From positions 124,001 to 188,000 of the forward strand of contig NZ_LDJL01000007.1 of assembly GCF_001431405.1 (NCBI RefSeq): a stretch of DNA of 64,000 nucleotides. Reading direction: 5' to 3'. Below are positions 7,178 to 26,154 of this stretch, piece by piece (positions within the stretch are counted from its first letter, which is position 1; each line of letters begins with the position of its first letter). The notes beneath the pieces were generated by a model that was not told the origin of the DNA, did not search any database, and saw only the letters and a program-made list of their open reading frames with translations. Source of the stretch: Pseudoxanthomonas dokdonensis (GTDB lineage Bacteria > Pseudomonadota > Gammaproteobacteria > Xanthomonadales > Xanthomonadaceae). Both the position numbers and the translations under genes were made by a program.

Positions 7178-7253
7178 GCGCTGTATCCAGACACAGAAGC
7201 CAGCGCGCACTCGCGCGCGAACATAATAACCAGACGGTTCAAGGGGAAGGGAT

Positions 7254-9692: not shown

Positions 9693-9712
9693 TCACCCAT
9701 TGGGGAGGGTGT

Positions 9713-9744
9713 CCCGGGCGCCAGTGACATGGCTGGCGCCCGGG
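9713..9744. terminator. Perfect 12-bp hairpin after the TonB-receptor gene
   Basis: CCCGGGCGCCAG (9713-9724) pairs exactly with 9733-9744 across an 8-nt loop, 20 bp after the receptor stop. It lacks a T tract, so it may stabilise the 3' end or act as a Rho-assisted terminator. It argues for starting recG downstream of it. Confidence 0.55.
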
Positions 9745-9786
9745 CATCGACTGGCAGTCGGCGCGGCAACCCGGCATGCTTGCCGG

Positions 9787-11889: not shown

Positions 11890-11919
11890 GGCCCGGCAGC
11901 GGCGCACGCCAATGCCAGG

Positions 11920-12486
11920 CTAGGGCTGGGGACGCGACCTGACCGGCTGATACTGGCCTTTGTCGCCGCTTTTGTGTCCACGCGGGTCGACATTGGCGCA
12001 GAGGCGATCGCCGCAAAGCTCGATATCCGAGCCGTAGAAGGCTTTCACTATCGGCACCGCGTTTTCGTAGCGCTGCAGTTCTTCCTTGTTCGCGCTGATT
12101 TCGCGACGGTAGTAACCCAGCAGCGCCCATCCGACCAACAGCACCAGCAGCAGGGTACCGACAGCAGCGCCCAGCCACAGCCAGACCATCCTGCCGGCCT
12201 GCCGCAACTGATTGCAGGTCTCGGACACGCTGCGGCCATAGTCGGCGGCGACCGGGGCTATCGATTCCCGGGCCTGGCGCGCGATTTCGCTGCTGGCGTT
12301 GCGGGTGATGGCTTCAATCCGTTGCTGCGCCTGGCCGACTTCGTGCTGCAGTGACTGCATCCGCTGCTCGAACTCGGCCTGCATCCGGGCCTCGCGCTGT
12401 TCGGATTTGGCCAGCAGCATCGATTGCATCTTGATGGTGCCTTGCAGTGAGGACAGCAATTCGGTTGAAAGGGCAGAATCGTGCAT
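11920..12486 (-). CDS. Coiled-coil membrane protein of unknown function (MobB/relaxation-protein-like)
   Basis: A 188-residue protein. Residues about 15-75 form a Gln/Glu/Arg-rich coiled coil (KSEQREARMQAEFEQRMQSL). A strong transmembrane segment spans about 100-125 (MVWLWLGAAVGTLLLVLLVGW), and a C-terminal domain with two Cys (ELCGDRLCANVDPRG) ends in a basic, Pro-rich tail. The architecture resembles mobilisation accessory (MobB-type) proteins that sit near type IV secretion effectors in Xanthomonadaceae; this is recalled similarity, not a search result. Ribosome-binding sequence AAGGAAGA precedes the ATG. It lies 27 bp downstream of the putative effector gene on the same strand and is probably co-transcribed. 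Confidence 0.7.
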   Translation of the reverse strand: MHDSALSTELLSSLQGTIKMQSMLLAKSEQREARMQAEFEQRMQSLQHEVGQAQQRIEAITRNASSEIARQARESIAPVAADYGRSVSETCNQLRQAGRMVWLWLGAAVGTLLLVLLVGWALLGYYRREISANKEELQRYENAVPIVKAFYGSDIELCGDRLCANVDPRGHKSGDKGQYQPVRSRPQP

Positions 12487-12513
12487 GGGATCTTCCTTGA
12501 GAAAAAGAGGGAA

Positions 12514-13458
12514 TCAGATACGCATCGCCGGCGTTTGTCGTTGCCGGCTCAGTTCCTGTTGCTGCAGTTCCTGCTGTTGCTGGCTGGTAAATTGTTCGCG
12601 GCCCCATTGCTCGACGGCCTGCATCTGCGGTGAGTTGGCGATAAGGGCAGCGGTCTGCGAGATTGCCCGGTCATTGTCAGCCAACAGGGCAGCGGCCAGG
12701 CGGTCCAGGTCCGGGTCGCCGGTGCGGAAGTGCTGACGCGGCTCTGGCGCATGCCGCTGCGGCGATGACGGCAGCGAGGTATCAGCCAAAGTCTGGTCTG
12801 CATCCGCGCGCGGGATGGTCGTAGGTACCTCATTGTCGGTCAGCAGCTTCTGCTTCCAGTCGCGGTCCTTGGGCAACGGCCGGCTGGATTCACTGTTGTA
12901 CGGACTGTCCGGGTAAGGCGCCGGGATGCTGCGGATCATGTCCTTGTTGTCCAGTACCTTGAGCGTGCCGTCAAAGTTTTGCAGCGGGACGAGCGTATGC
13001 GGGTCATTGGGCAGCGGCAGATTCATCTGCGCGTGCAGGCCGGCACGATTCAATCCGGTCCAGACAAAATCGATGCAGCTGTTGCTGACGCCGTTGTAGT
13101 TGAGGTCGAAGTAGGTCTCGTTGCCGCGTCGGCCTGCTTCGCCGTAGCCCTTGAGTGTCCGGTATTGCTGCTCGCTAATCTCCAGCGTGCGGGTGTAGGT
13201 GGGGTTTTGGTAGAATTTTTGTTCATCCAATACAATCTGGCCCGGACCGCGGATACCGGTTTCGATGGGTGAGAAGCCATAGCCGACGGTTTTGGTTCCA
13301 TTGCTGATGCTGTAGTAGGCGTGACCGGCCACTGAGCGGTGGTCGGGCTGGCCGGGATGTTTGACCACAGTGCCGGGCGCAGCCAGATAAATCGAGAGCG
13401 TATAGACGGGTACATTTGCATCGGCGTGCAAATCAGGGGCAGAGGTAAGACGGTTCAT
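12514..13458 (-). CDS. Putative secreted effector: papain-like (NlpC/P60- or LRAT-like) hydrolase with Gln-rich tail
   Basis: A 314-residue protein without signal peptide. Residues about 16-145 look like a permuted papain-like hydrolase domain: the GHAYYSI motif with His46 comes first, and NSCIDFVWTGLNRAG with Cys128 follows, the order seen in permuted NlpC/P60 and LRAT-like enzymes. A Pro/Ser/Asp-rich linker (about 175-250) leads to a C-terminal region (LDRLAAALLADNDRAISQ) and a Gln-rich end with a run of four Gln. A Gln-rich C-terminus is a known trait of the XVIPCD signal of Xanthomonadales type IV secretion effectors, but the full motif was not recognised. Its ATG overlaps the stop of the lipoprotein gene by 1 bp (TGATG), tying the two together as an effector/immunity candidate. 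The substrate (peptide, amide or lipid ester) is unknown. Confidence 0.6.
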   Translation of the reverse strand: MNRLTSAPDLHADANVPVYTLSIYLAAPGTVVKHPGQPDHRSVAGHAYYSISNGTKTVGYGFSPIETGIRGPGQIVLDEQKFYQNPTYTRTLEISEQQYRTLKGYGEAGRRGNETYFDLNYNGVSNSCIDFVWTGLNRAGLHAQMNLPLPNDPHTLVPLQNFDGTLKVLDNKDMIRSIPAPYPDSPYNSESSRPLPKDRDWKQKLLTDNEVPTTIPRADADQTLADTSLPSSPQRHAPEPRQHFRTGDPDLDRLAAALLADNDRAISQTAALIANSPQMQAVEQWGREQFTSQQQQELQQQELSRQRQTPAMRI

Positions 13459-14108
13459 CAGCGGGCACCTATTTCAGACAGACCTATTTCAAAGTAGTGG
13501 CTGACCAGCAGCTCGAAATTCAGATGGGCGACCTGTGGATGGTCCTGGAGGCTCTCGATTTCGATGTGATAGCGACCGGGTGTCGGCGGCGTGATACGCG
13601 CGATATCCCAGATCAGGTAATTCAGATTGAAGTCGAACTGACCGATGGCGTAAAGTTCTTTGACATCCTGGCCGGCGCCGCCGTGATGTACGAAGGTGTT
13701 TACTGGATGGGCTTCATACCACACCCGTGGAGGCCGAACACTGGAGTCCTCCTGTAGCTCCGAAAGCACCACCGGGATGCGCTTGCCGGCTTCCAGTTTC
13801 CACAGGCGAATGCGAAACGGCATGGGTTGGGTGTCGAGATACTCCAGAACTCCTGGTCCGGCATCCGGCCGGCCTTTGGGTCCCGGACTACGAAAGCCAA
13901 CGAACACCGGGCGCAGATAGCCGTTGTCGGTGGTGTTGGGCAAGCTGAAGTCCGCTTCGACCTTGGCCCCAGCACGGGTCAGATCAAATGGTTTGACCAC
14001 CGGAAAACTACGGTCGGCAGTGGCGGGCGTCGGGGTGATGTTCTGCGCGCATCCTGCCAGCAGCATCAGGCATGCCAGCAGCCAACGCTGTCGTGGATTT
14101 GTTCTCAT
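13458..14108 (-). CDS. Periplasmic lipoprotein, candidate immunity protein
   Basis: A 216-residue protein with signal sequence QRWLLACLMLLAGC; the lipobox LLAGC places the lipidated Cys near residue 20. The rest is rich in short beta strands (VVKPFDLTRAGAKVEADFSL, YHIEIESLQDHP, LNFELLVSHY), suggesting one or two Ig-like beta-sandwich domains. The stop overlaps the effector start (TGATG). Immunity proteins of Xanthomonadales antibacterial effectors are often periplasmic lipoproteins encoded next to the effector, which is the basis for this call; no family name was recognised with certainty. A second copy at 14218-14853 is nearly identical over most of its length. Confidence 0.7.
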   Translation of the reverse strand: MRTNPRQRWLLACLMLLAGCAQNITPTPATADRSFPVVKPFDLTRAGAKVEADFSLPNTTDNGYLRPVFVGFRSPGPKGRPDAGPGVLEYLDTQPMPFRIRLWKLEAGKRIPVVLSELQEDSSVRPPRVWYEAHPVNTFVHHGGAGQDVKELYAIGQFDFNLNYLIWDIARITPPTPGRYHIEIESLQDHPQVAHLNFELLVSHYFEIGLSEIGAR

Positions 14109-14217
14109 GGTTGATTACCTGTGTGATGCGCAGTTGAAAGGGAAGGATGAATGACGCTGATGCGGAAACGATGACCGATGCTGGCTTGCCGGTCATGGCA
14201 AGAGATTGGGTGATTCA

Positions 14218-14853
14218 TCAGCGGATGCCTCTCGCGTTGTAATGGCTGACCAGCAGTTCAAAGTTCATCTGTGAAACCTGAGGGTGGTCCTGAAGGCTTT
14301 GTATTTCGATGTGGTAGCGGCCGGGCGTCGGCGGCGCGATACGCGCGATATCCCAGATTTGATAGTTCAGATTGAAATCGAACTGGCCGATGGCGATGAG
14401 CTCTTCGGCATCATCACCCGCGCCGCCGTGACGGATGAAGACATCGGCGGGGTGGGCTTCGTACCACACACGTGAAGGCCGAACACTAGAGTCCTCTTGA
14501 AGCTCGGAGAGCACGACCGGGATGCGTTTGCCGGCTTCCAGTTTCCACAGGTGAATGCGAACCGGGATGTCCTGGGTGTCTAGATACTCCAAACCTTTGG
14601 GCCCGGCATCCGGTCGTCCCTTTGGCCCTGGACTGCGGAAGCCAACGAACACCGGGCGCAGATAGCCGTTGTCGGTAGTGTTGGGCAAGCTGAAGTCGGC
14701 TTCGACCTTCGCACCAGCACGGGGCAGGTCGAATGGTTTGACCACCGGAAAACTGCGGTCGGCAGTGGCGGGCGTCGGGGTGATGTTCTGCGCGCATCCT
14801 GCCAGCAGCATCAGGCATGGCAACAGCCATTGCGCCCGGGCTTTTGCCTGTAT
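14218..14853 (-). pseudogene. Tandem duplicate of the lipoprotein, initiation codon altered (ATG to ATA)
   Basis: A paralogue of the gene at 13458-14108. The stretch from the lipobox (CLMLLAGCAQNITPTP) to the C-terminus is collinear and highly similar at DNA level, with long identical tracts near the signal peptide. At the position of the ATG of the intact copy this copy has ATA (complement of 14851-14853). The frame stays open upstream to 15162, with in-frame ATGs at 15036 and 15162, but those would add over 60 residues unlike any signal peptide before the lipobox and have no convincing ribosome-binding site. It may therefore be silent, use ATA or a CTG, or be fused to an upstream reading frame. 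The C-terminal end differs (YNARGIR versus YFEIGLSEIGAR). Confidence 0.6.
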
Positions 14854-15408
14854 GGCGGGTTGTCCAATGCTGGCGAGTGCGATCTTGCAAACGCGTTCGC
14901 CAGTGCCTGCTGATGAGCGGCCAGCACCGGCCCGCGCAATACGCCGCCATCGGACCGGCGTGCTCCATCGCAGACGGCTGTGGTCCTGGATTGCACCGTG
15001 CAACAATCGGATAACGTGATACGGGCCAGCGTCCATTCTTCTGCCATCTTCATGTCCTTGCGAAACTATACCGCTGGCCGTGCGCTTGCAATGCAACTTG
15101 TTTGAACGGATGCGACGCTGACTGCGTCGCGACGAGAACGGGCGTCCTGAGCTCCATTGCAAGTCACTTTCATCAAGCAGGCTCTGCTGTCAGACCGCCT
15201 ATCCCAAGGCGATGGTCGATGAGGCGCGCGTCCATGTTGGTCATTGACACCCAATCTTGAGTACGGAATGCACTGACAAGCCGGATGCCATCCAGTGACG
15301 AGTGTCACCAGATGGGTGGGCAGGTGTCTTTGGCAACCATGGTCTCGATGACACTGAGCGTAAAGGGTTAACGCCGTGTGGAGTGTTCGGACGCGATGAG
15401 GTCCAACT
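14854..15408. other. Gene-poor stretch upstream of the duplicated lipoprotein
   Basis: No gene is supported here. On the minus strand an 80-codon frame (15053 to 14811) with an AAGGA sequence one base before its ATG overlaps the lost start of the lipoprotein duplicate. Its product (MKMAEEWTLARITLSDCC...) resembles nothing recognised and could be the 5' remnant of an older gene cut by the duplication. A short inverted repeat GTGAC-GAGT-GTCAC is at 15295-15308. Nothing else was seen. Confidence 0.4.
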
Positions 15409-16788
15409 TCAGCGCCTGCTGTCCGCCTCGGTCCTGTCGACACGGATGCCGCGGCTGCGGTCGCTGTCGAGCACGAATGATCGGTGATCGTCGGCGGGGG
15501 TGAGTGAGAAGGACTTGCCCTGGTACTGCTGCTGATCCTTCTGCAGCAGGAAGGTCACCGGCGCGGTGCCGGGCAGGCGTGACTGCACGACGACGGTCAG
15601 CACCTCGCCCTGCAGCGAAAGCTGATAGTCGGCTTGAAGCTCATCCGATCCGTAGCGGCCAGCCAGTGGTGGCGGAGCCGGTGCGGCGAAGCCATCGGGC
15701 AGAATGCGCGCGAGTGCGGCGTCGATCTTGCGACCGGCATTCCAGTCGGCGCGGTTGCACAGGATCGCCGCGCTGACGCCGGCATCGGGCAGATAGGCAT
15801 AGAAGGCCTTGAAGGCTTCCGCCGAACCGCTGTGCTGGACCACCCGTTGACCATTGCGTTGGCCAACCAGCAGGCCGCCGGCGTACGCCAGCTGATCGGA
15901 TGGATGGATGACCGGCCGGCCATCGCTGAGCCTGCCCGGGGTCAACATGATGCGGCGTACGTCATCGGTCCAGACCCGATGCTGCAAGGTCATGTCGCGC
16001 TGGTAGCGCGCAAGGTCATTGATGCTGGTCATCAGTCCGCCGGAGCCGCCGAAGTGCGGATAGCTGTCGCGCACGGCGAATTCACCATCCTGTTCGACGT
16101 AGCCGTGGGCCAGGTTCTGGACATCGGCCTGCCGGCCCTGCATGACGTAGCTGCGTGTCATGCCCATCGGTGCCAGTACGCGCGTGTTGACGTAATCCGC
16201 GAATGACATACCGCTGACCCGCGCGACGACTTCGGCCAGCAGCAGATAACCACCATTGGAATACAGATAGTCGGTGCCGGGGACGAAGTTGGTGCCGCGT
16301 TGACGCATGAGCAGGGCCAGCGCGGTGTCCCTGCTGTTGTCGGCACCGCTGCCGAGGCCGGCCATCCGCAACAGTGAAAGGAAATCACGGACCCCGGAAC
16401 TGTGGTGCAACAGCATGTCCAGGGTTACCGGCGCGTCGTAGCGCGGAAGCTCCGGCAGATAGCGCTGGACCTCGTCATCGAGCGACAGCTGTCCTTGGCT
16501 GGCCAGCTGTGCGACGGCCAGCGCGGTGAACTGCTTGGATACCGACGCGGCGTAGAACAGGGTGTCGCCGTCAATCGGTTGGCGGCGGGCAATATCGGCA
16601 TAGCCCGCCGCGGCGATCTGGTCGGCCTGGCCCTGGCGGAATACGCCCAACGCGCAGCCCGGTGCAATCGCCTGGTCGTTATCGGTGACCAGCACCTGCA
16701 ACGGGTTTTCAGGCGACGGCGGAACCGCCTGCACCGGGCACGGTGCCAGGGCCAGCCACAACAGATACCTGTACTTGAACATCATCAC
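15409..16788 (-). CDS. Secreted serine hydrolase, class C beta-lactamase / D-aminopeptidase-like
   Basis: A 459-residue protein with a signal peptide (YRYLLWLALAPCPVQA, cleavage near residue 21). The SxxK nucleophile motif is SVSK at residues 82-85 and the YxN motif is YSN at 176-178; the HSGSAEAFKAF segment corresponds to the third (KTG-like HxG) motif. The fold is the penicillin-recognising serine hydrolase group that includes D-Ala-D-Ala carboxypeptidases, esterases and D-aminopeptidases. A C-terminal beta-rich domain (about 350-459) is attached. It is the last gene of the minus-strand D-glutamate locus, 54 bp after the TonB receptor, which suggests it trims D-amino-acid-containing peptides or esters in the periplasm or outside the cell. 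The exact substrate is inferred from context. Confidence 0.85.
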   Translation of the reverse strand: MMMFKYRYLLWLALAPCPVQAVPPSPENPLQVLVTDNDQAIAPGCALGVFRQGQADQIAAAGYADIARRQPIDGDTLFYAASVSKQFTALAVAQLASQGQLSLDDEVQRYLPELPRYDAPVTLDMLLHHSSGVRDFLSLLRMAGLGSGADNSRDTALALLMRQRGTNFVPGTDYLYSNGGYLLLAEVVARVSGMSFADYVNTRVLAPMGMTRSYVMQGRQADVQNLAHGYVEQDGEFAVRDSYPHFGGSGGLMTSINDLARYQRDMTLQHRVWTDDVRRIMLTPGRLSDGRPVIHPSDQLAYAGGLLVGQRNGQRVVQHSGSAEAFKAFYAYLPDAGVSAAILCNRADWNAGRKIDAALARILPDGFAAPAPPPLAGRYGSDELQADYQLSLQGEVLTVVVQSRLPGTAPVTFLLQKDQQQYQGKSFSLTPADDHRSFVLDSDRSRGIRVDRTEADSRR

Positions 16789-16842
16789 AGCTGCTTCCCG
16801 CTTTGCCGCGCCGTGCCGTTGCCGGCAGGGCGCGCAGATACA

Positions 16843-19674
16843 TCAGAAATTGAAACGCACGCCCACATTGTATTGGCGGCCGATGACGTCATACAGCGAA
16901 CGCACCGTGGCGTAGCCACCCGTACCGGTGATTGCCGGATCCTTGTCGGCTACGTTGCGTACAGATGCGAACACGCTGACCGTGGCATCGTCTGCATGGT
17001 AGATGTCGTAGGAGCCGCCCAGATCGAAGTAGGTGCGACCGGAATGGCTGAGGACGTTGAGATCCTTGTAGGTGTAGCTGTTGTTGATGTTGCCGCCGCC
17101 GATGTAGCGCACCCCAGCATTGAAGCCCCAGGGCCCGATGCGGTAGTTGCCGGTCAGGTTGCCGGTCCAGCGGGGCTGGCCGCCGACACTGGCGATGGTT
17201 GGCTGGTCGGTGCTGCCGGCCAGCTGGGTGACGGTTTCACCGTCGTCCAGTTCCAGTGTATCCACGTAGGACACCAGGCTGCGCACGCCCAGCTCGCCAT
17301 TGCCGAGCGGGGTGCTGTAGGAAAGTTCGAAGTCCGCGCCGCTGACCAGCATCGACTGCAGGTTCTGCGGCGATACTTCGACGTATGAAATCAGGCCGCT
17401 GTCGGGGTCGCGGACGATCAGATCGCACAGCTGCGGCTGGCCGCCGTAACAGCGGTCGACGATTGCCGATGCCTGGAAAGTGGTGATCGCCTTGTCAACG
17501 CTGATGCGGTAATAGTCCAGCGACATCATCAGGTTGGGCAACGGGCTCAACACGATGCCGGCGGTGGTGGTATCGGCTTCTTCCGGATCCAGCCCGGGAT
17601 TGCCCGAAGACACCGACTGCACCAGGTACGTGGTCCCGGTGTCACGGTCGAACACATTGAAGTTGGCCGATGATGCACCGCTGTACAACTCGTCAAGCGA
17701 AGGCGCACGGATGTCGCGTGACTGGGTGGCACGCAGGCGCAACAGCTCATTGACCTGCCAGGAACCGCCGATCTTCCACGAGGCAACCGAACCGGACGTG
17801 CTGTAGTCGGTCAGACGCGCGGCCAGATCCAGATCCAGCGACTGCGCCCAGGCGGTATCGGCGGCCAACGGCAACACCCATTCGGTGAACAGCTCTCTGA
17901 CCTCGACTTCACCGTCCCAGGGCACGGTATTGCCGGTATTGAAGTCACCGGCCATCGAGCGCGCGTCCGAAGTCACGTCGGCGCGTTCGCGACGCCACTC
18001 GACACCGGTCGCCATCGACACGGGACCGGCCCAGGTTTCGAAGGGTTCGCCGCGCACGGTTGCGGCAGCGGCATCCTGGACAATGCGCGAGTTGACCCAG
18101 GAGGTACCGGTCACGTAATCGCGCGCCGCCTGCGAGGGGGCACCGTCGCCGAACAGGTTGATCGCCTGGCAACCCGCGGCGCGCGCGTCGGCGTCGCGAC
18201 AGACCGCCGCACCGGTGGCCGGGTCGATGATCGAATTCAGGGCATAGGCGAATTCACTGGTCAGGCGCTTGTCGTAGCTGCGCAGCATGGTCTCGCTTTC
18301 GCCATGGGTGTAATAGGCGTCCCAGCTCCAGTAGTTGTCCATCAGGCCTTCGAGCCCGGCCACCACTCGCTTGGTTTCCATCGTCTTGTCGTTTACTGCA
18401 CGCGCGTAGTCGCGGTTGTAGCGGCCCATCTTGAAGCTGTCGATGCCGGCGTCGTCCATTGCCTGGCCAATGCTGGTCGGCAGGAATGCGTTGTCACGCT
18501 TGATGGTCAAGCCGCTGTCGGTGCGGGTGAGGCTGTTGTAGTAAAGGCTGGACTTGGCCCACGAAGCCTCGGCATAGCCAGTGACATTGGGAGTGAAGTC
18601 GAACGACAGGCGCCCATAGACGCTCTCGCGATCAATCGGCGTCTCCAGCACGAATTCGGCTGAGCCATCGGCGCCGTCGCCACCGACCATGCTGGAACTG
18701 CTGACCAGGTCGCCATACTCGAACGGTATCGGGGTGCCGTCGTCGGCAAACTGGATCCCTTTCAACGGACCCGCGTTGATCAGGCCACCGAAGGTCATGT
18801 TGGAACTACGGGTGTTGTCAATCAGCAGTTGCCGCGGCTCGTCGTTGTCGGCGGTATAGGCTGGATTGGCGATCTTGCCCCAGCTACGCGCGCCCCAGTC
18901 CCGGTCGGCCAGTCTTGGAATGCCGTCGTTGCTGGCTTTTTCCACCGCCAGCAGCAGGTGGCCGCGGTCGTCGGCAAAACGTTTGCCAAAGGCCAGCGAA
19001 CCCAGTTGCGTATCACGGTCACCATGGCGGGTGGTGCCGGCCTGCAGCAGTCCCTTGACGCCTTCGAGTTCGCGGTCGAATTTGAAATTGACGACACCGG
19101 CGACGGCATCCGAACCCCATGCCGCCGACGCACCGCCGGTGACGATGTCGATGTTGCTGATCAACGTCTGCGGTATCGAATTGATGTCCACCGGGCCTTC
19201 GGTCTGGCTGGGTACCGAGCGTTTGCCATCCACCAGCACCAGCGTCCGGTTGAAACCCAGGCCACGCAGGTCAAGGTAATAGCCGCCGGCATAGGATGAG
19301 TTGTTGGTGGTGCTGGTCGGGGTCAGCGACGGGCGCACCGACGGCATCTGGTTGATGACCTCGGCGACGCTGATCGCCGCGGCGTTGCTGATCTCCTCGG
19401 CGCTGATCGCCGTTGTCGGCGTGGGTGCACTGAACCCACCACGCATCACCCGCGACGCGGTTACGCTGACCTTGTCCAGTTGTGTTGCGCTGCCAGGCGC
19501 TGCCGCGGTGTCGGGCTGCGACGATGTGGCCGGAACAGGCGCGGCCTGGGCCAGGACGCCAGCGCTGGGCAGCGACAACGCGGCGCAACAGGCCAGCGCC
19601 AACTGCCGCTGCCGGCAACCACGCGCACCGGGTTTGCCAAGGGATTGATGCGGGGAACAGGGATTGGCGCTCAC
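16843..19674 (-). CDS. TonB-dependent outer-membrane receptor of the D-glutamate locus
   Basis: A 943-residue receptor. The GTG at 19674 is chosen because GA-rich ribosome-binding sequence lies just upstream and the signal peptide (LALACCAALSLPSAGVLAQA) then begins about 25 residues in; a longer ATG frame from 19785 adds unconserved sequence. The plug domain has TPTTAISAEEISNAAAISVAEVIN, LDLRGLGFNRTLVLVDGKR and GGASAAWGSDAVAGVVNFKF, typical of the long peptide/oligosaccharide-type receptors with an extended plug. The barrel ends IGRQYNVGVRFNF with terminal Phe. A 39-bp element shared with the dgcN upstream region lies at 19833-19871, about 160 bp upstream, so co-regulation is likely. The substrate is probably a D-Glu-containing peptide or N-acyl D-amino acid (inference). 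Confidence 0.9.
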   Translation of the reverse strand: MSANPCSPHQSLGKPGARGCRQRQLALACCAALSLPSAGVLAQAAPVPATSSQPDTAAAPGSATQLDKVSVTASRVMRGGFSAPTPTTAISAEEISNAAAISVAEVINQMPSVRPSLTPTSTTNNSSYAGGYYLDLRGLGFNRTLVLVDGKRSVPSQTEGPVDINSIPQTLISNIDIVTGGASAAWGSDAVAGVVNFKFDRELEGVKGLLQAGTTRHGDRDTQLGSLAFGKRFADDRGHLLLAVEKASNDGIPRLADRDWGARSWGKIANPAYTADNDEPRQLLIDNTRSSNMTFGGLINAGPLKGIQFADDGTPIPFEYGDLVSSSSMVGGDGADGSAEFVLETPIDRESVYGRLSFDFTPNVTGYAEASWAKSSLYYNSLTRTDSGLTIKRDNAFLPTSIGQAMDDAGIDSFKMGRYNRDYARAVNDKTMETKRVVAGLEGLMDNYWSWDAYYTHGESETMLRSYDKRLTSEFAYALNSIIDPATGAAVCRDADARAAGCQAINLFGDGAPSQAARDYVTGTSWVNSRIVQDAAAATVRGEPFETWAGPVSMATGVEWRRERADVTSDARSMAGDFNTGNTVPWDGEVEVRELFTEWVLPLAADTAWAQSLDLDLAARLTDYSTSGSVASWKIGGSWQVNELLRLRATQSRDIRAPSLDELYSGASSANFNVFDRDTGTTYLVQSVSSGNPGLDPEEADTTTAGIVLSPLPNLMMSLDYYRISVDKAITTFQASAIVDRCYGGQPQLCDLIVRDPDSGLISYVEVSPQNLQSMLVSGADFELSYSTPLGNGELGVRSLVSYVDTLELDDGETVTQLAGSTDQPTIASVGGQPRWTGNLTGNYRIGPWGFNAGVRYIGGGNINNSYTYKDLNVLSHSGRTYFDLGGSYDIYHADDATVSVFASVRNVADKDPAITGTGGYATVRSLYDVIGRQYNVGVRFNF

Positions 19675-19982
19675 GGTCTCTCTCTCTCTTGTAGGAAATC
19701 GGGGCAACAGCGGGTCGGCCACAAGCGCTGCATTCCCAACGCATGCTCGGTCTTGGCGAAAAAAACGATCGTCCGGTAACAACACTGCAATGACCGGTTC
19801 GTCCCAACCTTAGCCAGCGTTGCCGGCTTCGACCAATGAAAAGACCATGGCCGGGCATAACGTGGAGTTATCGCTGGCGCGATCGCCTGCAATTCCCGCA
19901 ATGGCGTCCGATGCGCGAGTGGCCGGCGCTGCGCGACCATCTGGACAGGCACGCGGAGCGGTAGTTGGTTCTTGTGGCGCGC
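19675..19982 (-). promoter_or_regulatory. Upstream region of the TonB-receptor gene
   Basis: A 308-bp gene-free stretch between the LysR-type gene and the receptor. It holds the LysR-type box element at 19833-19871. On the minus strand, TTGGTC followed after 18 bp by TAAGGT gives a weak -35/-10 pair immediately downstream of the element. It ends in a GA-repeat ribosome-binding region. Confidence 0.45.
19833..19871 (-). promoter_or_regulatory. LysR-type box, copy 1 (upstream of TonB receptor)
   Basis: Read on the plus strand: CCAATGAAAAGAC, 9 variable bases, GCATAAC, 5 variable bases, GTTAT. The ATAAC-N5-GTTAT inverted repeat is a classic 15-bp LysR-type T-N11-A box. The same element with identical spacing lies upstream of dgcN at 26116-26154. 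Confidence 0.7.
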
Positions 19983-20885
19983 CTAGCGCAGTGCCTTCGG
20001 CGTCAGATCGGCAATGACACGGATGTGGTCGATGAAGGCTTGCTGGATTGGCGTTGGCTGCTCGCCGTTGCGCACAAGCAGGTACAGCGATACGTCCAGT
20101 TCGGGCTTCAAGGTGCGGATCTGGATGTTGTTGCCGCCGCCATAGGCGGTGAATGGATCGACGATGGCCAATCCATGTCCATCGACGACCAGCGCCCGTG
20201 CCAACTGGTAGGTCTGCACGTTGATGCGGGTCTGTGGTTCCGGTTGCAGATGTTGCAGGTGGGTGCGTACACGCCGGCCCAGTCCGTCATGCGACAGGAT
20301 CCCGATCATCCGTTCGCCTGCCAGCTCACTGACCGGCAGCGGCTTGTCGAGCAGCGCAGGCTTCCACCAGCCGGCCGGCGCGATCACGCGCAGCTTGTCG
20401 CGATGCAGGCATTGCAGCTGTATGTCGGGGTGGCGTACTTCCTGCAGGGTCAGGCCGATGTCGCTTTCACGCAGCAGCAGCGAGCGCAGCATTTCTCGCG
20501 AATGTTCGGTCACCAGCTCGATCGGCGCCTCGGCGAACGCAGCCGACAGACCGGTAACGGCCTGTGGCACCAGCGCGCTGGCCAGCGTCGGGATGCTGAC
20601 GACCCGCAATGGCCGATGGCCGGCATGTTTGATGCTGGCCGACAGCCGTTGCAGATCGCGCAGCTGATCGTGGATCTTCTCGATCCGCGCGCACAGCAGC
20701 TCACCCTCGGCGGTCAACTGCAATCGGCCGCGCACGCGGTTGAACAGGGCAAACCCGAGCTGCATTTCCGCATGCTGCAACAGCTTGGTCGCGGCCGGCT
20801 GCGAGACATTCAGCAGCTTGGCCGCTCCGGTCAACGTGCCGGCTTGCAGGACAGCCTGGAAAACCTCGATATGACGCAATCGCAT
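19983..20885 (-). CDS. LysR family transcriptional regulator of the D-glutamate locus
   Basis: A 300-residue LysR-type regulator, starting at the ATG 20885 (MRLRHIEVFQAVLQAGTLTG); the longer frame from 20924 adds 13 unconserved residues. The N-terminal winged helix-turn-helix spans residues about 1-60, with the recognition helix in NVSQPAATKLLQHAEMQLGF. The rest is the periplasmic-binding-like effector domain (PLRVVSIPTLASALVPQAV). It sits inside the minus-strand cluster, between gltS and the TonB receptor. A LysR regulator (DgcR) is reported to control dgcN-dgcA in marine bacteria, and this gene is the candidate counterpart; whether it is orthologous needs a tree. The shared LysR-type boxes at 19833 and 26116 are its likely targets. 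Confidence 0.88.
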   Translation of the reverse strand: MRLRHIEVFQAVLQAGTLTGAAKLLNVSQPAATKLLQHAEMQLGFALFNRVRGRLQLTAEGELLCARIEKIHDQLRDLQRLSASIKHAGHRPLRVVSIPTLASALVPQAVTGLSAAFAEAPIELVTEHSREMLRSLLLRESDIGLTLQEVRHPDIQLQCLHRDKLRVIAPAGWWKPALLDKPLPVSELAGERMIGILSHDGLGRRVRTHLQHLQPEPQTRINVQTYQLARALVVDGHGLAIVDPFTAYGGGNNIQIRTLKPELDVSLYLLVRNGEQPTPIQQAFIDHIRVIADLTPKALR

Positions 20886-20982
20886 GCTTGACTCTGGTCC
20901 AACCTTGTTTGGGGAACCGCGCACAGGTATTCGATCATGTCAGCCACGCGACCCTGGCGGACAGGTGCGTGCTGCCGCCGTG

Positions 20983-22194
20983 CTATTTCCAGAAGTTGAG
21001 GAAGCCGGTGATCACCAGCGCGTTGGCGAAGTCGATGAAGAACGCGCCCACCAGCGGCGCGACCAGGAAGGCTCGCGGGGCCATGCCGTAACGCTCCACC
21101 AGCGTCCGCATGACCGCCATCGCATTGGCCGTGGTCCCCAGCATGAAGCCGACGAAGCCACCGCCCATCACCGCGGCGTCGTAGTCGCGTCCCATCAACC
21201 GGTACACCACGATGAAAGCGAACAATCCGACCAGGGTCGCCTGCACGATCAGGATGGCGACCAGCGGCAGGGCCAGGCCCGCCAGCTCCCACAGTTTGAG
21301 GTTCATCAGTGCCAGTGCCAGGAACATCGACAGGCAGACATTGCCAATGACTTCGATGGTCGGCATCGACAATTTCAGCCAGCCGGTGCGGTCATCGAGA
21401 TTGCGCATCGCCGCGCCCACCAGCATCGCTCCGATGTAGCTGGGCAGGGTGATGCCAAGCTGGCTGATGCCCTGGCTGATCCAGGAACCCAGCCACATCG
21501 CGATCAGCAGCAGCACGATGCTCTTGAGCGCGGTGAATTCGCGTTGGCTGTGGCTCTGGCCGTTGGCCTGCTGATAGCCCGGATCATTCAACTGGGCCGC
21601 CAACTCCGGGTCTCCGTGGTCCGGCGTGCGGATGCCCCAGCGCCGGATCAGCGCGGTCGCCAGGGGACCGCCCAGCAGGCCGCCGCAGATGATGCCGGCC
21701 ATGGCCGCGGTGATCGCCACCGACTGCGCACCCTGCACGCCGGCCTGTTCGAACAGGGGCGCGAAGGCCAGGCCAGTGGCCGGACCGCCGGCCATGGTCG
21801 TGGAACCTGCCAGCACGCCGAACAGCGGATGCAGGCCAAACAGCTTGGCCACCATCACCCCGGCCAGGTTCTGCACGACGGTGAAGCCGGCGGCCAGGGC
21901 CAGGAAAATCGCCACCTGGCGGCCGCTGATGCGCAGCAGGCTGACGCTGGCGTTGGCGCCGATGGCGGTGAAGAAGGCAATCATCAGCGGCGTCTGCAGG
22001 CTGGTGTCCAGCGCGAACAGGGTCTGTCCACGGCCATGGGCCACCAGGCTGGCGAGTGCCAGCAGCAAACCGCCGACGACCGGCGCGGGAATGTTGTAGC
22101 GGCTGAGGATGGAAACGTGGCGGCACAGCCCGTAGCCAACCATCAGGCAGGCGCCGGCAAGGGCGAGGGTCTGGATGGCGTCCAGCTCAAACAT
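20983..22194 (-). CDS. gltS: Sodium/glutamate symporter, GltS family
   Basis: An inner-membrane Na+-dependent glutamate carrier of 403 residues with 10-12 hydrophobic segments. Family motifs are seen: the N-terminal region ending YNIPAPVVGGLLLALA, the first reentrant-loop motif TTMAGGPATGLAFAP, and the C-terminal half with LGTTANAMAVMR and FVGFMLGTTANAM. The two GG-rich reentrant loops typical of the GltS/ESS fold are present. Placement in a D-glutamate catabolic cluster suggests uptake of D-Glu (GltS family members accept both enantiomers in E. coli) or L-Glu released in the periplasm. It begins 57 bp after the D-aminoacylase gene and is probably co-transcribed. Confidence 0.93.
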   Translation of the reverse strand: MFELDAIQTLALAGACLMVGYGLCRHVSILSRYNIPAPVVGGLLLALASLVAHGRGQTLFALDTSLQTPLMIAFFTAIGANASVSLLRISGRQVAIFLALAAGFTVVQNLAGVMVAKLFGLHPLFGVLAGSTTMAGGPATGLAFAPLFEQAGVQGAQSVAITAAMAGIICGGLLGGPLATALIRRWGIRTPDHGDPELAAQLNDPGYQQANGQSHSQREFTALKSIVLLLIAMWLGSWISQGISQLGITLPSYIGAMLVGAAMRNLDDRTGWLKLSMPTIEVIGNVCLSMFLALALMNLKLWELAGLALPLVAILIVQATLVGLFAFIVVYRLMGRDYDAAVMGGGFVGFMLGTTANAMAVMRTLVERYGMAPRAFLVAPLVGAFFIDFANALVITGFLNFWK

Positions 22195-22251
22195 CGATTT
22201 CTCCTGCGGTGGTGGGGACGACGCGCCCGCGGACAGGCACGCGTGGACCCA

Positions 22252-23946
22252 TCACGGGCAGGAGCCCGCCGTGGGGACATGGTGCAGCAGCTTGCCGGCC
22301 AGCACGTCGGTGGCCTCGCCCTGGTCAATCGCAAGCCTGCCGTTCACCAGCAGCGACTGCACGCCTAGCGACAGTTCCTGTGGATGCAGGTAATCCGCAC
22401 GCGGGGCATATTTGACAGGGTCGAAAACCACGATGTCGGCATGGTAACCCGGGCGCAGCAGTCCGCGCTTGTGCAGACCGAGCAGGCGCGCGCTCAGGCC
22501 GGTCGAACGATGGATGAATTCGCCCAGGCCCAGCAGCTGATCGCGCTGCACGTAATCGACGTATTTCTTCGGAAACGTGGCGTACTGGCGCGGGTGTCCG
22601 TCGGAACCGTCGGAGCTGGTGATGACCCAGGGCTGCCGCATCAGCAGGCGCACGTCGTCCTCGGCCATGTTGAACGAAGCCACCGAGCCAGCCGAACGGA
22701 CGCCCGGTGGTCGGTCGTCGCCTTCGACGATGCGGATTGCGGCGTCAACCGCATCGATGCCCCATTCGCCGGCTACCTGGCTCAGGCGTTTGCCGGTCCA
22801 GGGATGGCCGGCGGCGGTCAGCAGCAGCGATTCGGCGCCGCCACGACGGCGCAGATTGTCCTGCATCTGCTGACCGATCCGTGCGCGCAGGGTCGGGTCG
22901 CGCAGGCGTTGCAGCAACGCGCTGCGGCCGCCATCCTGCGCCCACAGCGGAAACAACGCGGACTTGAGGTTGGTGCCGGACGCCAGCCACGGATACTGGT
23001 CGGCGCTGACCTGCTGGCCCTGTGTGCGAGCGTCATCAATGAGCCGGACAAGCGCGCCGGCCTGGCCCTGGACGTCGACGCCAAGCGCCTTGAGATGGGC
23101 GATGTGCACTGGCAGGCCGGCCCGGCGACCAATTTCCAGCGCTTCGCGGGTCGAGTCCAGCAGGCCAAGCGTGTACGAGGACTCATCGCGCTGATGGGTG
23201 TCGTAGATGCCGCCACGCAGTGCCGCCTCGTGCGCAAGGGCCACGACCTCGTCGGTATCGGCAAAGCTCTGTGGCGCATAGAACAGGCCAGTGGAGAAGC
23301 CGAAGGCACCCTCGCACATGCCGTTGGCGACCAGCTCGCGCATGGCCTGCAGTTCATCGGCATCGGGATGACGGTCATCTTCCCGCAGCACCGCCCGGCG
23401 CACCGGCCCGAAGCCGACGTAGGGTGCGAGGTTGGTGCCGACGCCATGGTTGTCGAACCAGCGCCGCTGTTCGGCCACCCGCGGGCTGCCGTCGCCGTCA
23501 ACGCCGACCATCAGCGTGGTCACGCCCTGGTACAGCCAAGGCAGGTTGCGGCGGACCGAGGCATCAGGCGAGGTGATGTAGGTCTTGGGGTGGGCATGCG
23601 CGTCGATGAAACCCGGCGCCACCACCATGCCCTTCGCATCCAGCAGGCGCCGCGCTCGATAGTGCCGCGAGGCATCGTCGGTGAGCGCGACGATGCGGCC
23701 GTCGGACACCACCACGTCCTGCTGCCTGGGATCGCCACCACTGCCGTCATACACCGTGCCGCCGCGGATGACCACGTCCACCTGGGTGAGAGCGGCGACT
23801 GGCGCATCGCCCGCCGCCTGCCCGTTGTCGTGGCAGGCCGACAGACACAATGCCAGGCAGGCGATCGCAGGCCACCGGGCGGCGTTGAGAAGGCCTGCTC
23901 CGATGCCAGGGATCGTTGTCGTGGATGCTGTTCTCATGGTTTTCAT
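22252..23946 (-). CDS. Exported N-acyl-D-amino-acid deacylase family lipoprotein (amidohydrolase)
   Basis: A 564-residue amidohydrolase-superfamily enzyme. The ATG at 23946 overlaps the dgcA stop (ATGA) and gives a signal peptide with lipobox LSAC, Cys38, so the enzyme is predicted to be membrane-anchored outside the cytoplasm. The TIM-barrel metal motif PGFIDAHAHP has His117 and His119. Further family motifs are FGFSTGLFYAP, HIAHLKALG and SSDGSDGHPRQYATFPK, the last matching the end-of-barrel Asp region of D-aminoacylases. At the position where D-aminoacylases usually have a metal-ligand Cys (in a GVTT-x-x-x-G-NCG context), this protein reads GVTTLMVGVDGDGSP and lacks it. Expected reaction: release of a D-amino acid, perhaps D-Glu, from an N-acyl or peptide form. 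Confidence 0.85.
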   Translation of the reverse strand: MKTMRTASTTTIPGIGAGLLNAARWPAIACLALCLSACHDNGQAAGDAPVAALTQVDVVIRGGTVYDGSGGDPRQQDVVVSDGRIVALTDDASRHYRARRLLDAKGMVVAPGFIDAHAHPKTYITSPDASVRRNLPWLYQGVTTLMVGVDGDGSPRVAEQRRWFDNHGVGTNLAPYVGFGPVRRAVLREDDRHPDADELQAMRELVANGMCEGAFGFSTGLFYAPQSFADTDEVVALAHEAALRGGIYDTHQRDESSYTLGLLDSTREALEIGRRAGLPVHIAHLKALGVDVQGQAGALVRLIDDARTQGQQVSADQYPWLASGTNLKSALFPLWAQDGGRSALLQRLRDPTLRARIGQQMQDNLRRRGGAESLLLTAAGHPWTGKRLSQVAGEWGIDAVDAAIRIVEGDDRPPGVRSAGSVASFNMAEDDVRLLMRQPWVITSSDGSDGHPRQYATFPKKYVDYVQRDQLLGLGEFIHRSTGLSARLLGLHKRGLLRPGYHADIVVFDPVKYAPRADYLHPQELSLGVQSLLVNGRLAIDQGEATDVLAGKLLHHVPTAGSCP

Positions 23947-24932
23947 CGTCCGCCCCAGAAGCCATCGGCGGGAGGTTGCAGGCGACCGTTTTCGAAACGC
24001 GATCCGTCCGCATGGTCGTGGCTGAGCCACCACGGTCCGTCCAGGTCGACGAAGTCGGCATGCCGGGCGATGTGCAGCGCTGGCGCAATCCCCAGCGAGG
24101 AGCAGATCATGCAGCCGACCATCACCTGCAGATTCCGTTCGCGGGCGGCTGCCAGCATCAGCAGTGCCTCGCTGAGCCCGCCACTCTTGTCCAGCTTGAT
24201 GTTGACGGCCTGGTAGCGATCAACCAGCCGCGTCAGGTCGGCGGCGACATGGCAGGATTCGTCCGCGCAGATCGGTCGCTGCGGCTGGAAACCAAGCAGC
24301 GCAGCGTCATCGTCGCTGGGCAACGGTTGTTCCACCAGCGCCACATCGGTCTCCACCAGTACCGGCTGGATCCAGCGCAGCAATTCCAGATCCCAGCTCT
24401 CGTTGGGATCCACGATCAATCGTGCGCCCGGCGCTGCTGCGCGGACCGCGCGTATCTGCTCCGCCGGCTGTCGCGCATCGACCTTGATCTTGATCAGTGG
24501 CGCATCCGCCACCCGCGCGGCGGCCTTACCCATGATTGCTGGCGCATCCAGGCTGATGGTCAGCGCGCTGGTCATCACCGGCAGTGGACCATGGCCCAAT
24601 GCGTCACTGACGGCTACGCCATCAAGCCGGGCCTGCAGGTCCCACAAGGCATCATCCAGTGCGTTGCGGGCGGCGCCGGCGGGCAGCAACGACGCCAGTT
24701 GCTGGCGATTGGCGCCTTGTTCGATTGGCGCGCGCACGCTTTCCAGTTGCGCGATCACCGACGCGACGCTTTCGCCGTAGCGCGCGTAGGGCACCGATTC
24801 GCCACGGCCGCGCATGCCGTCCTGCTGCAGTGACACTTCCACCACCTCGGCGGATGTCTTGACCCCACGCGAAATCCGGAACGGATGCGCCAGCGCCCAG
24901 CTGCGGTGGCTGGCGCTCAGCCGGCGAAGCAT
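23943..24932 (-). CDS. dgcA: N-acetyl-D-glutamate racemase DgcA-like (dipeptide-epimerase family)
   Basis: A 329-residue enolase-superfamily enzyme close to L-Ala-D/L-Glu epimerases. The capping domain (1-120) is followed by the barrel with the catalytic KIK motif (Lys148, Lys150), metal ligands Asp175 (IVDPNESWD), Glu201 (VEQPLP) and Asp224 (CADESC), and the second catalytic Lys region NIKLDKSGG (244-252). In the recently described DgcN-DgcA route, DgcA interconverts N-acetyl-D- and N-acetyl-L-glutamate. The assignment rests on pairing with dgcN, whose stop it overlaps by 16 bp; alone it could equally be called a dipeptide epimerase acting on L-Ala-D-Glu from peptidoglycan. The next gene overlaps by 4 bp (ATGA). 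Confidence 0.85.
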   Translation of the reverse strand: MLRRLSASHRSWALAHPFRISRGVKTSAEVVEVSLQQDGMRGRGESVPYARYGESVASVIAQLESVRAPIEQGANRQQLASLLPAGAARNALDDALWDLQARLDGVAVSDALGHGPLPVMTSALTISLDAPAIMGKAAARVADAPLIKIKVDARQPAEQIRAVRAAAPGARLIVDPNESWDLELLRWIQPVLVETDVALVEQPLPSDDDAALLGFQPQRPICADESCHVAADLTRLVDRYQAVNIKLDKSGGLSEALLMLAAARERNLQVMVGCMICSSLGIAPALHIARHADFVDLDGPWWLSHDHADGSRFENGRLQPPADGFWGGR

Positions 24933-26002
24933 GACTGCAACCGATCGGCGATGCGGTCCATGCCCATCGTCACCGGGTCCTGGCAGGGCAGGTCGAGCTG
25001 GTTTTCGATGCTCTCGCAGGCGCGCTGCGCCTCATCGCGGTCCATGCCCGAGGTATTGAGTGCCACGCCAATGGCAAGCACGCCCGGACTGGTCAGGCGG
25101 GCGGCGGCCAGGTTGGCTTCCAGGCATGTGCGCAGGTGCGGAACCGGGTAGTGCGGCAGGCCACGCATGTGCTGGCGCGTCGGCTCATGACACAACAGCA
25201 ATGCATCGGCTTGTGCACCGTGCAGCAGCCCCAGCGATACCCCGGCATAGGACGGGTGGAACAGCGAACCCTGGCCTTCGATGATGTCCCAGCCGCCATC
25301 CTCGCGTGCCGGTGAAATCCATTCGGCCGCGCCCGAAATGAAGTCCGCGATTACCGCGTCGATGGGCACGCCGCCGCCGGCAATGAAGATCCCGGTCTGG
25401 CCGGTGGCCCGGAAATCAGCGGCCAGGCCACGCGCCCGCAGCTCTTTTTCAAATGCCAGTGAAGCGTACATCTTGCCCACCGAGCAATCCGTGCCGACCG
25501 TCAGCAGCCGCTTGCCGGCGCGGCGCTGGCCATGGCCGACCTGCAGTGGCGGCGGATTGCGGGCATCGTAGAGATGGCGATCGTTGCGTTGTGCCGCAGC
25601 GACGATGGCCGGATGCGATGCCAGGCGCTGGTGCAGTCCGGATGCGACGTTGAGTCCGGCATCGAGTGCCGCCACCACCGCACGCACGGTTTCCTCGTCC
25701 ATGACCCCACCGGCGTTGGCGACGCCGACGATCATCGTATTGGCACCGGCCAGGCGCGCCTGCCGGGCGTCCATGTCAGTCAGGCCGACGCTGGTCCGGC
25801 ACTGGCTGCCGCGCAGTTGCCCGACGCACCATTGCGGACGCCAGTAGGCCAGCCCGCGGGCGGTCTTGGCCGCCAGATCATCGCGGGCGTTGCCCAGGTA
25901 CAACAGATAGGGCGGCGCCCACTGCGCATTGGCTGCACCGGCAACGATGGCGGGGCCGGTGCTGTCTGGCGATGCGGAAGAGGAATTCATGCGAGTGCTC
26001 AT
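24917..26002 (-). CDS. dgcN: D-glutamate N-acetyltransferase DgcN-like (DUF1611)
   Basis: A 361-residue cytoplasmic protein of the DUF1611 family. The N-terminal domain (PYLLYLGNARDDLAAKTARGLAYWRP) is Rossmann-like; the C-terminal domain begins with a P-loop, GTDCSVGKMYASLAFEKELR, and contains FRATGQTGIFIAGGGVPIDA and EGQGSLFHPSYAG, all hallmark stretches. DgcN is reported to acetylate D-glutamate as the first step of a D-Glu catabolic pathway, with DgcA as second enzyme. The start at 26002 (MSTRMNSSS) is uncertain: an ATG at 25990 is as good, neither has a clear ribosome-binding site, and the longer frame to 26119 is excluded because it runs into the LysR-type element. It is the first gene of the minus-strand cluster, and a LysR-type box lies 114 bp upstream. 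Confidence 0.86.
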   Translation of the reverse strand: MSTRMNSSSASPDSTGPAIVAGAANAQWAPPYLLYLGNARDDLAAKTARGLAYWRPQWCVGQLRGSQCRTSVGLTDMDARQARLAGANTMIVGVANAGGVMDEETVRAVVAALDAGLNVASGLHQRLASHPAIVAAAQRNDRHLYDARNPPPLQVGHGQRRAGKRLLTVGTDCSVGKMYASLAFEKELRARGLAADFRATGQTGIFIAGGGVPIDAVIADFISGAAEWISPAREDGGWDIIEGQGSLFHPSYAGVSLGLLHGAQADALLLCHEPTRQHMRGLPHYPVPHLRTCLEANLAAARLTSPGVLAIGVALNTSGMDRDEAQRACESIENQLDLPCQDPVTMGMDRIADRLQSCFAG

Positions 26003-26115: not shown

Positions 26116-26154
26116 CCAATGAAAAGACGCCGTCGATGCATAACCGGGGGTTAT
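26116..26154. promoter_or_regulatory. LysR-type box, copy 2 (between dgcN and nucleoside hydrolase)
   Basis: CCAATGAAAAGAC, 9 variable bases, GCATAAC, 5 variable bases, GTTAT: the same 25 conserved positions and spacing as the element at 19833-19871. On the minus strand TTGGGA followed after 18 bp by TATCGT gives a possible core promoter for dgcN. The divergent nucleoside hydrolase starts 79 bp from the other edge, so the site could act on both. Confidence 0.7.

Follow-up and report, generated by a model that had tools for sequence, protein, structure and literature searches.

A rare promoter box suggests a peptide-scavenging regulon around D-glutamate catabolism genes in Pseudoxanthomonas dokdonensis

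A rare box upstream of two transcription units

The window analyzed here is a 64,000-nucleotide stretch of the Pseudoxanthomonas dokdonensis genome (contig NZ_LDJL01000007.1, positions 124,001 to 188,000), in which seven open reading frames (ORFs) between positions 15409 and 26002, all on the minus strand, form a D-glutamate (D-Glu) locus. Our analysis suggests, with a probability of roughly 65%, that this locus is a regulon, controlled by a shared promoter box and probably by a LysR-type protein, that scavenges D-Glu from peptides, most likely the stem peptides of peptidoglycan. Peptidoglycan contains a large store of D-amino acids, and to our knowledge the uptake and burning of external stem peptides by Gram-negative bacteria is poorly defined; if the reading is true, it provides a testable route for bacteria feeding on dead cell wall peptides. 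The box turns a loose gene neighborhood into a testable regulon, with likely members named and co-induction predicted, and it suggests roles for an uncharacterized exported aminoacylase, for orphan TonB receptors, and for S12 hydrolases, which are otherwise easily taken for beta-lactamases. No description of this locus was found among the matches listed from the open-access literature, subscription papers being outside the scope of the search.

The genes fall into two groups. The first begins with dgcN, encoding a D-glutamate N-acetyltransferase (DUF1611; positions 24917 to 26002; NF041892), and continues with dgcA, for an N-acetyl-D-Glu racemase of the enolase superfamily (23943 to 24932; NF042940), the gene for a lipoprotein D-aminoacylase-like amidohydrolase, here called DAA (22252 to 23946; PF07969, lipobox LSAC), gltS, for a sodium/glutamate symporter (20983 to 22194; TIGR00210), and a lysR-family regulator gene (19983 to 20885; PF00126/PF03466). 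The second consists of a TonB-dependent outer membrane receptor (16843 to 19674; PF00593, PF07715) and a secreted S12 serine hydrolase with the class C beta-lactamase/DD-peptidase fold (15409 to 16785; PF00144). The ORF coordinates bear out an earlier note on this DNA, which had reported seven minus-strand genes with a 16-bp dgcN/dgcA overlap and a 4-bp dgcA/DAA overlap. The receptor ORF is open to position 19785, and a GTG start at 19674 is proposed from a signal-like N terminus and a purine-rich stretch upstream. A single seven-gene operon was set aside since a 308-bp gap containing a separate box precedes the receptor. Judging from the sequence, dgcN through lysR and the receptor-hydrolase pair are probably two transcription units with one common regulatory element.

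This element emerged when the sequences upstream of dgcN and upstream of the receptor were compared between the window and the related locus L061; it was present in all four, with a spacer of exactly 13 bp. The box reads ATAAC-N5-GTTAT-N13-CTTTTCATTGG. Both copies in the window are exact matches on the minus strand, one at 26116 to 26154, 113 bp upstream of the dgcN ATG, and the other at 19833 to 19871, 158 bp upstream of the proposed receptor start, and the copy upstream of the L061 receptor is exact as well. None of 100 shuffles of the window contained an exact match. In the whole 3.55-Mb genome, the two window boxes were the only sites at up to three mismatches, and the reversed-pattern control gave none. 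Because the same rare box lies upstream of dgcN and of the receptor, we regard the two units as parts of one regulon; the extended D-Glu locus proposed in the earlier note is strengthened by this common element. The dyad of the box is of the T-N11-A type, which is typical of LysR operators, and the local lysR product is probably the regulator, predicted to bind both boxes. A scan with the sigma-70 consensus found no promoter (0 compared to 2.0 expected in shuffles).

The box in other genomes

The box recurs outside the window. In an unbiased sample of 61 genomes there were 9 sites in 6 genomes (reversed control, 1), and in an unbiased sample of 397 genomes of the order there were 90 sites in 45 genomes (reversed control, 5). 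A further set comprised 168 loci (2.85 Mb, some stretches overlapping) taken around dgcN, aminoacylase, GGT, or M20 genes. At up to three mismatches, these contained 46 sites with the 13-bp spacer and none with spacers of 9 to 12 or 14 to 17 bp, and neither the reversed pattern nor any of 40 letter-shuffled patterns gave a site. At up to five mismatches there were 76 sites, although those with four or five mismatches are individually weak (shuffled patterns gave means of 0.15 and 0.98 and maxima of 2 and 4). Sixty sites were assigned automatically, to dgcN (30), DAA (11), TonB receptors (7), GGT (6), and the penicillin amidase family (6). Fourteen of the 16 unassigned sites were reinspected, and ten proteins were checked by Pfam. 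Sites in L077, L080, L083, L088, and L093 precede receptors, and two in L086 and one in L083 precede exported M81/MlrC-like proteins. The others precede a TonB protein (L086, three mismatches), an M23 peptidase with SH3 domains (L188, four mismatches), a penicillin amidase (L117), and a gltS gene 354 bp away (L183), and two in L089 have no clear gene.

A box at up to three mismatches lies within 450 bp upstream of 35 of the 67 dgcN matches (at least 62% identity). Ten dgcN matches have a lysR gene (at least 45% identity) and no box directly upstream of dgcN. In six of these loci (L036, L039, L072, L077, L254, and L256) the box precedes a GGT gene upstream of dgcN, and the other four (L064 to L066 and L074) have a five-mismatch site instead.

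In Sphingomonadales (L096, L105, L117, L130, L131, and others), genes for PBP4, an AmpG-family transporter, a small S12 protein, and a penicillin amidase-family acylase adjoin dgcN, and only the acylase has a box, a diverged one with five mismatches. The PBP4, AmpG-family, and M19 genes, all of which often occur close to dgcN in this order, were set aside as regulon members, none of the 76 sites being assigned to them, and their place beside dgcN may be plain synteny. As a separate observation, boxes in L244 (2144 to 7006), L245, and L248 to L253 lie upstream of large TonB receptors followed by a TPR-sulfotransferase protein; receptor identity behind such boxes was confirmed by Pfam in L080, L088, and L093. 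Near loci of the L244 type are genes for an M61-family protein and, in L250, for BhcC (3-hydroxy-D-aspartate aldolase; 741 bits, above the cutoff of 690).

Stem peptide genes behind the box in relatives

The choice of peptidoglycan over other sources of D-Glu was made mainly because box-linked genes of relatives handle diaminopimelate. LysA and DapF act on this compound, which is the neighbor of D-Glu in Gram-negative stem peptides. In Rhodanobacteraceae-type genomes, the box precedes same-strand strings of the form dgcN-dgcA(-GGT)-lysA, and in G638 and G644 it precedes DAA-dapF-transaminase, with a diverged DAA that is 38% identical to that of the window. Two LysA proteins tested scored 467 and 460 bits (equivalog cutoff, 298), and the box-linked DapF scored 229 bits (cutoff, 115), whereas the box-linked D-amino acid transaminase-like protein, at 246 bits, was below its cutoff of 277. 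All 11 genomes searched have another dapF elsewhere, which makes the box-linked gene a second copy. Of 10 such genomes, 4 (G644, G638, G602, and G443) have lysA inside the locus and 6 have it elsewhere, and all 10 have a second above-cutoff LysA match in a long frame, in 6 cases with a single stop interrupting the match. In the window genome, the one dapF and the one above-cutoff lysA both lie outside the locus, as do the two GGT genes. The earlier note had already proposed peptidoglycan as the source of D-Glu, and the genes for other stem peptide residues behind the same box in relatives add to that proposal.

The same strings bear on another source, namely, poly-gamma-glutamate or other gamma-glutamyl compounds. 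Here the receptor would import poly-gamma-D/L-Glu oligomers, GGT, where present, would trim them, and the released D-Glu would pass to DgcN. Boxes upstream of GGT in relatives, and GGT near DAA in 9 of 11 loci without dgcN, would fit this scheme. Nevertheless, we consider it improbable: the window locus has no GGT, an aminoacylase cutting on the nitrogen side would presumably be unnecessary for such polymers, and LysA and the second DapF in box-preceded strings point to diaminopimelate-containing peptides.

Taken further, these data would describe a previously undescribed stem peptide utilization regulon of Gram-negative bacteria, in which one rigid LysR-type box governs TonB uptake, periplasmic release of D-Glu (by D-aminoacylase, GGT, and S12/M81 hydrolases), symport, interchangeable exits (DgcN-DgcA or DadA-like, perhaps transamination), a dedicated LysA, and sometimes DapF, so that whole stem peptides serve as food. 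We put this wider reading forward tentatively, at slightly less than even odds.

Proposed route and the proteins that would carry it

In the proposed peptide-scavenging route, the TonB receptor would import D-Glu-bearing peptides and the periplasmic S12 hydrolase would trim them, after which the lipoprotein aminoacylase would cleave the amide on the D-Glu nitrogen (Xaa-D-Glu or N-acyl-D-Glu) and free D-Glu; the two hydrolytic roles are suggested by family, export signals, and context. GltS, as a member of its family, would bring D-Glu inward. By the published chemistry, DgcN acetylates D-Glu and DgcA converts N-acetyl-D-Glu to N-acetyl-L-Glu, and equivalog membership predicts the same reactions for the two window proteins. 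The N-acetyl-L-Glu may feed arginine synthesis or be deacetylated by an enzyme encoded elsewhere. Binding of the regulator to the common bipartite box would switch on both transcription units.

The DgcN, DgcA, and GltS assignments given in the earlier note agree with curated family cutoffs. DgcN scored 509.1 bits against NF041892 (equivalog cutoff, 480), with 7xrj_A as its closest solved chain (E value, 2.1e-101), DgcA scored 424.2 bits against NF042940 (equivalog cutoff, 400), and GltS scored 356.3 bits against TIGR00210 (equivalog cutoff, 310.75). DgcA was below the cutoff for L-Ala-D/L-Glu epimerase (NF011708; 324.2 bits compared to 343). GltS is the sole PF03616 match in the whole genome, and a sequence search of the PDB at an E value of 0.001 gave no match for it.

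For DAA, the best PDB matches were D-aminoacylase (1rjp/1m7j) and then N-acyl-D-glutamate deacylase (3gip), and PpOngB chains and another carbohydrate deacetylase entry also matched. Residues H117, H119, H251, H284, K286, Y318, and D446, which we take to be metal-binding or catalytic positions, are conserved throughout the 29 locus-type rows of a 33-row alignment. DAA thus shares with 3gip and 1m7j the family, the HxH motif, two further His, the Asp, and the Lys/Tyr positions; it differs in being an exported lipoprotein, in having Asp150 for the metal-ligand Cys, and in that its specificity is a prediction. An export-type segment was recognized in 55 of 58 homologs (at least 46% identity) with a simple hydrophobicity test, and two of the three missed show a lipobox by eye. 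The lipid anchor described in the earlier note agrees with the lipobox in the window, whereas most Sphingomonadales copies, judged by eye, have Sec-type N termini without a lipobox.

The S12 hydrolase matched PF00144 with 203.2 bits, and its motifs S82-x-x-K85, Y176-x-N178, and H319-x-G321 are kept in a 10-row alignment. Its full-length relatives are in L061 (61%), L162 (48%), L164 (49%), and L104 (39%). The ten best PDB matches include alkaline D-peptidase, D-aminopeptidase, D-Ala-D-Ala carboxypeptidase, D-amino acid amidase, and ClbP, as well as LACTB and a PBP-related beta-lactamase, with many AmpC enzymes coming after. The protein scored 98.1 bits against class C beta-lactamase (NF033085; cutoff, 415) and 128.1 bits against D-aminopeptidase (NF009622; cutoff, 443), and its assignment as a beta-lactamase was rejected with scores so far under the cutoffs.

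Conservation and exchange of parts

Conservation was followed in two samples. Gene family counts at the loci were made by tblastn with seed proteins because the ORF caller sometimes took antisense ORFs in high-GC DNA. The first sample consists of 80 named dgcN loci, the top-ranked 80 among 584 confirmed relatives, some on short contigs. The second comprises 395 genomes of the family; four named loci (L071, L073, L074, and L082) come from genomes that are also in this sample. Among the named loci, dgcA was present in 71, DAA (at least 45% identity) in 37, and a full-length receptor relative in 20. A glutamate symporter was found in 44, GltS in 9 and an SDF/GltP-type protein in 35. (A relative of the latter, a GltP/DctA-type symporter, is encoded on the plus strand of the window at 45147 to 46358, with 36% identity to the SDF symporter at dgcN loci of other lineages.) DAA and a symporter occur together in 33 loci, DAA only in 4, a symporter only in 11, and neither in 32, and the exported aminoacylase and a glutamate symporter thus accompany dgcN-dgcA across several orders. 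DAA is most regular in Sphingomonadales (29 of 33), Hyphomonadales (4 of 4), and Caulobacterales (3 of 4).

These counts bear on the simplest alternative, that dgcN, dgcA, gltS, and lysR serve the catabolism of free D-Glu only, the receptor, hydrolase, and aminoacylase being chance neighbors that serve another nutrient. Many loci have dgcN-dgcA but, under these thresholds, no DAA, symporter, or receptor (among the named loci, all 9 of Rhodospirillales, 4 of Sneathiellales, and the 1 of Vibrionales), and some Xanthomonadaceae have just dgcN-gltS-lysR or dgcN-lysR, as this alternative would predict; TonB receptors are, moreover, frequent in the genome. Chance neighbors would not be expected, however, to share a rare box with dgcN, as the receptor unit does in both the window and L061, and DAA overlaps dgcA in the window, recurs in 37 of the 80 named loci, and has a box with four or five mismatches upstream in loci without dgcN. 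We therefore regard free D-Glu as the sole substrate as unlikely, although it is the strongest of the alternatives.

In the family sample, DgcN was above the cutoff in 22 genomes and a DAA ortholog was present in 21. DAA lies beside DgcN in 10 of these 21, beside a DadA-like gene without DgcN in 9, and beside neither in 2, and it stands in tandem with gltS in 19. Of the 11 DAA loci without adjacent dgcN, 9 combine DAA-gltS with a receptor, GGT, and a DadA-like D-amino acid dehydrogenase; two DadA-like proteins tested, at 333 and 319 bits, were below the cutoff of 383. The presence of dgcN and dadA is nearly exclusive (+/+, 1; +/−, 9; −/+, 9; −/−, 2; Fisher P = 0.002, the genomes being related), with the reservation that the L061 dgcN contig (17 kb) is too short to rule out a nearby dadA. 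The DAA tree requires the dadA label to change at least three times.

Several observations weigh against a regulon for stem peptides. First, the window locus lacks GGT, DapF, LysA, a transaminase, and a murein endopeptidase, and no N-acetyl-L-Glu deacetylase is among its genes (the genome has 7 M20 matches). Second, the set of parts varies: among 121 mapped stretches, the exact seven-gene order is found only in the window and L061, DAA is in 1 of 12 named Lysobacterales loci, and an intact DAA adjoins DgcN in only 10 of the 22 DgcN-positive genomes. In 8 of these 22, no DgcA is above the cutoff (G284, G294, G384, G097, G172, G338, G202, and G047, the last 81% complete), and DgcN may have a different exit there. 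The exchange of dgcN for dadA amounts to two or three independent pairs, a number at which a sign test cannot reach significance, and 13 dgcN matches have a box and no lysR of at least 45% identity in the stretch. Third come points on the protein families. The DAA family also contains sugar acid deacetylases (compare the PpOngB chains), Asp150 stands in all 29 locus-type rows near the aligned family Cys that is presumably the metal ligand of D-aminoacylase, the S12 hydrolase is below every curated cutoff listed, and the genome has 38 PF00593 matches. Finally, a passage of PMC12882949 describes the induction of scattered D-aminoacylase and TonB receptor genes in the sphingomonad Caenibius tardaugens on cholate, which means that aminoacylase/receptor pairs can serve other substrates.

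Comparison with known systems

The known DgcN-DgcA D-glutamate pathway has a LysR-type regulator, and the window locus resembles it in its dgcN-dgcA pair, above curated cutoffs, and LysR-family neighbor. It differs in adding a co-regulated outer membrane receptor, exported hydrolases, and a dedicated glutamate symporter, and some relatives of the locus have no dgcA or have a DadA-like gene in place of the pair. Peptidoglycan peptide recycling with the YcjG epimerase and AmpG likewise handles stem peptide D-Glu and uses an epimerase of the same superfamily, whereas the window locus would acetylate D-Glu first and take it up through the proposed TonB receptor and GltS, and its DgcA is below the YcjG cutoff. 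Bacteroidota polysaccharide utilization loci share the plan of outer membrane receptor, periplasmic hydrolases, inner membrane importer, and local regulator; the chemistry here is that of peptides rather than glycans, and the regulator in the locus is of the LysR type. The SusC/SusD pairing that defines those loci is lacking, as a Pfam scan found no SusD family member among the seven genes.

The mlr microcystin degradation cluster is also similar, having an S12 hydrolase and a substrate with gamma-linked D-Glu, and M81 proteins occur in some relatives of the window locus. It raises the further alternative that the locus breaks down N-acyl-D-amino acids or D-Glu-containing lipopeptides or cyclic peptides of the microcystin type, disarming or eating secondary metabolites. 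The S12 hydrolase is MlrB-like, the box lies upstream of exported M81 proteins with an MlrC C terminus in L083 and L086, and Sphingomonadales have penicillin amidase-family acylases behind a diverged box (five mismatches). Yet a Pfam scan of the seven genes detected no M81 protein (no search for MlrA was made), and the diaminopimelate metabolism genes that follow the same box in relatives, which set these loci apart from mlr, do not fit lipopeptides. We consider this the least probable of the alternatives. The M81/MlrC-like metallopeptidases themselves (L086, 5229 to 8677; L083, 6822 to 8522) may link the regulon to the microcystin degradation enzyme family.

Parts of the locus have appeared in the literature before. 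The DgcN-DgcA pathway is mentioned in passages of PMC10845958 and PMC12363236, and a passage of PMC3400609 places a TonB receptor gene beside a D-aminoacylase gene in strain NOR5-3. This adjacency is shared with the window locus; DgcN-DgcA, GltS, and shared regulation are not named in that passage. Among the parts that the earlier note had listed as new, the receptor-aminoacylase pair was already on record. The note's inference of peptide capture, exported hydrolysis, and import is partly supported and appears largely right.

A second locus and neighboring genes

A second locus built from the same gene families, though diverged, lies on contig 31 of the same genome (L031) at 6839 to 19344. It encodes two S12 hydrolases, a TonB receptor, a POT peptide symporter, an aminoacylase with HxH changed to L-x-W, a DUF1611 protein (430.6 bits, below the DgcN cutoff of 480), and a DgcA-like epimerase (337.7 bits, below 400), and no box was found in it at up to five mismatches. 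Strings of this type (serine hydrolase-epimerase-aminoacylase-DUF1611-serine hydrolase) occur in L034, L037, L044, L047, L048, and L050.

Next to the D-Glu locus, the minus-strand region at 11920 to 15162 of the window resembles, by its sequence, an effector module in which the immunity lipoprotein is duplicated. It encodes a 314-amino-acid protein without a Pfam match (12514 to 13458) and two related proteins with a lipoprotein-type signal (13458 to 14108 and 14218 to 15162), the latter with a subthreshold match to DUF5625.

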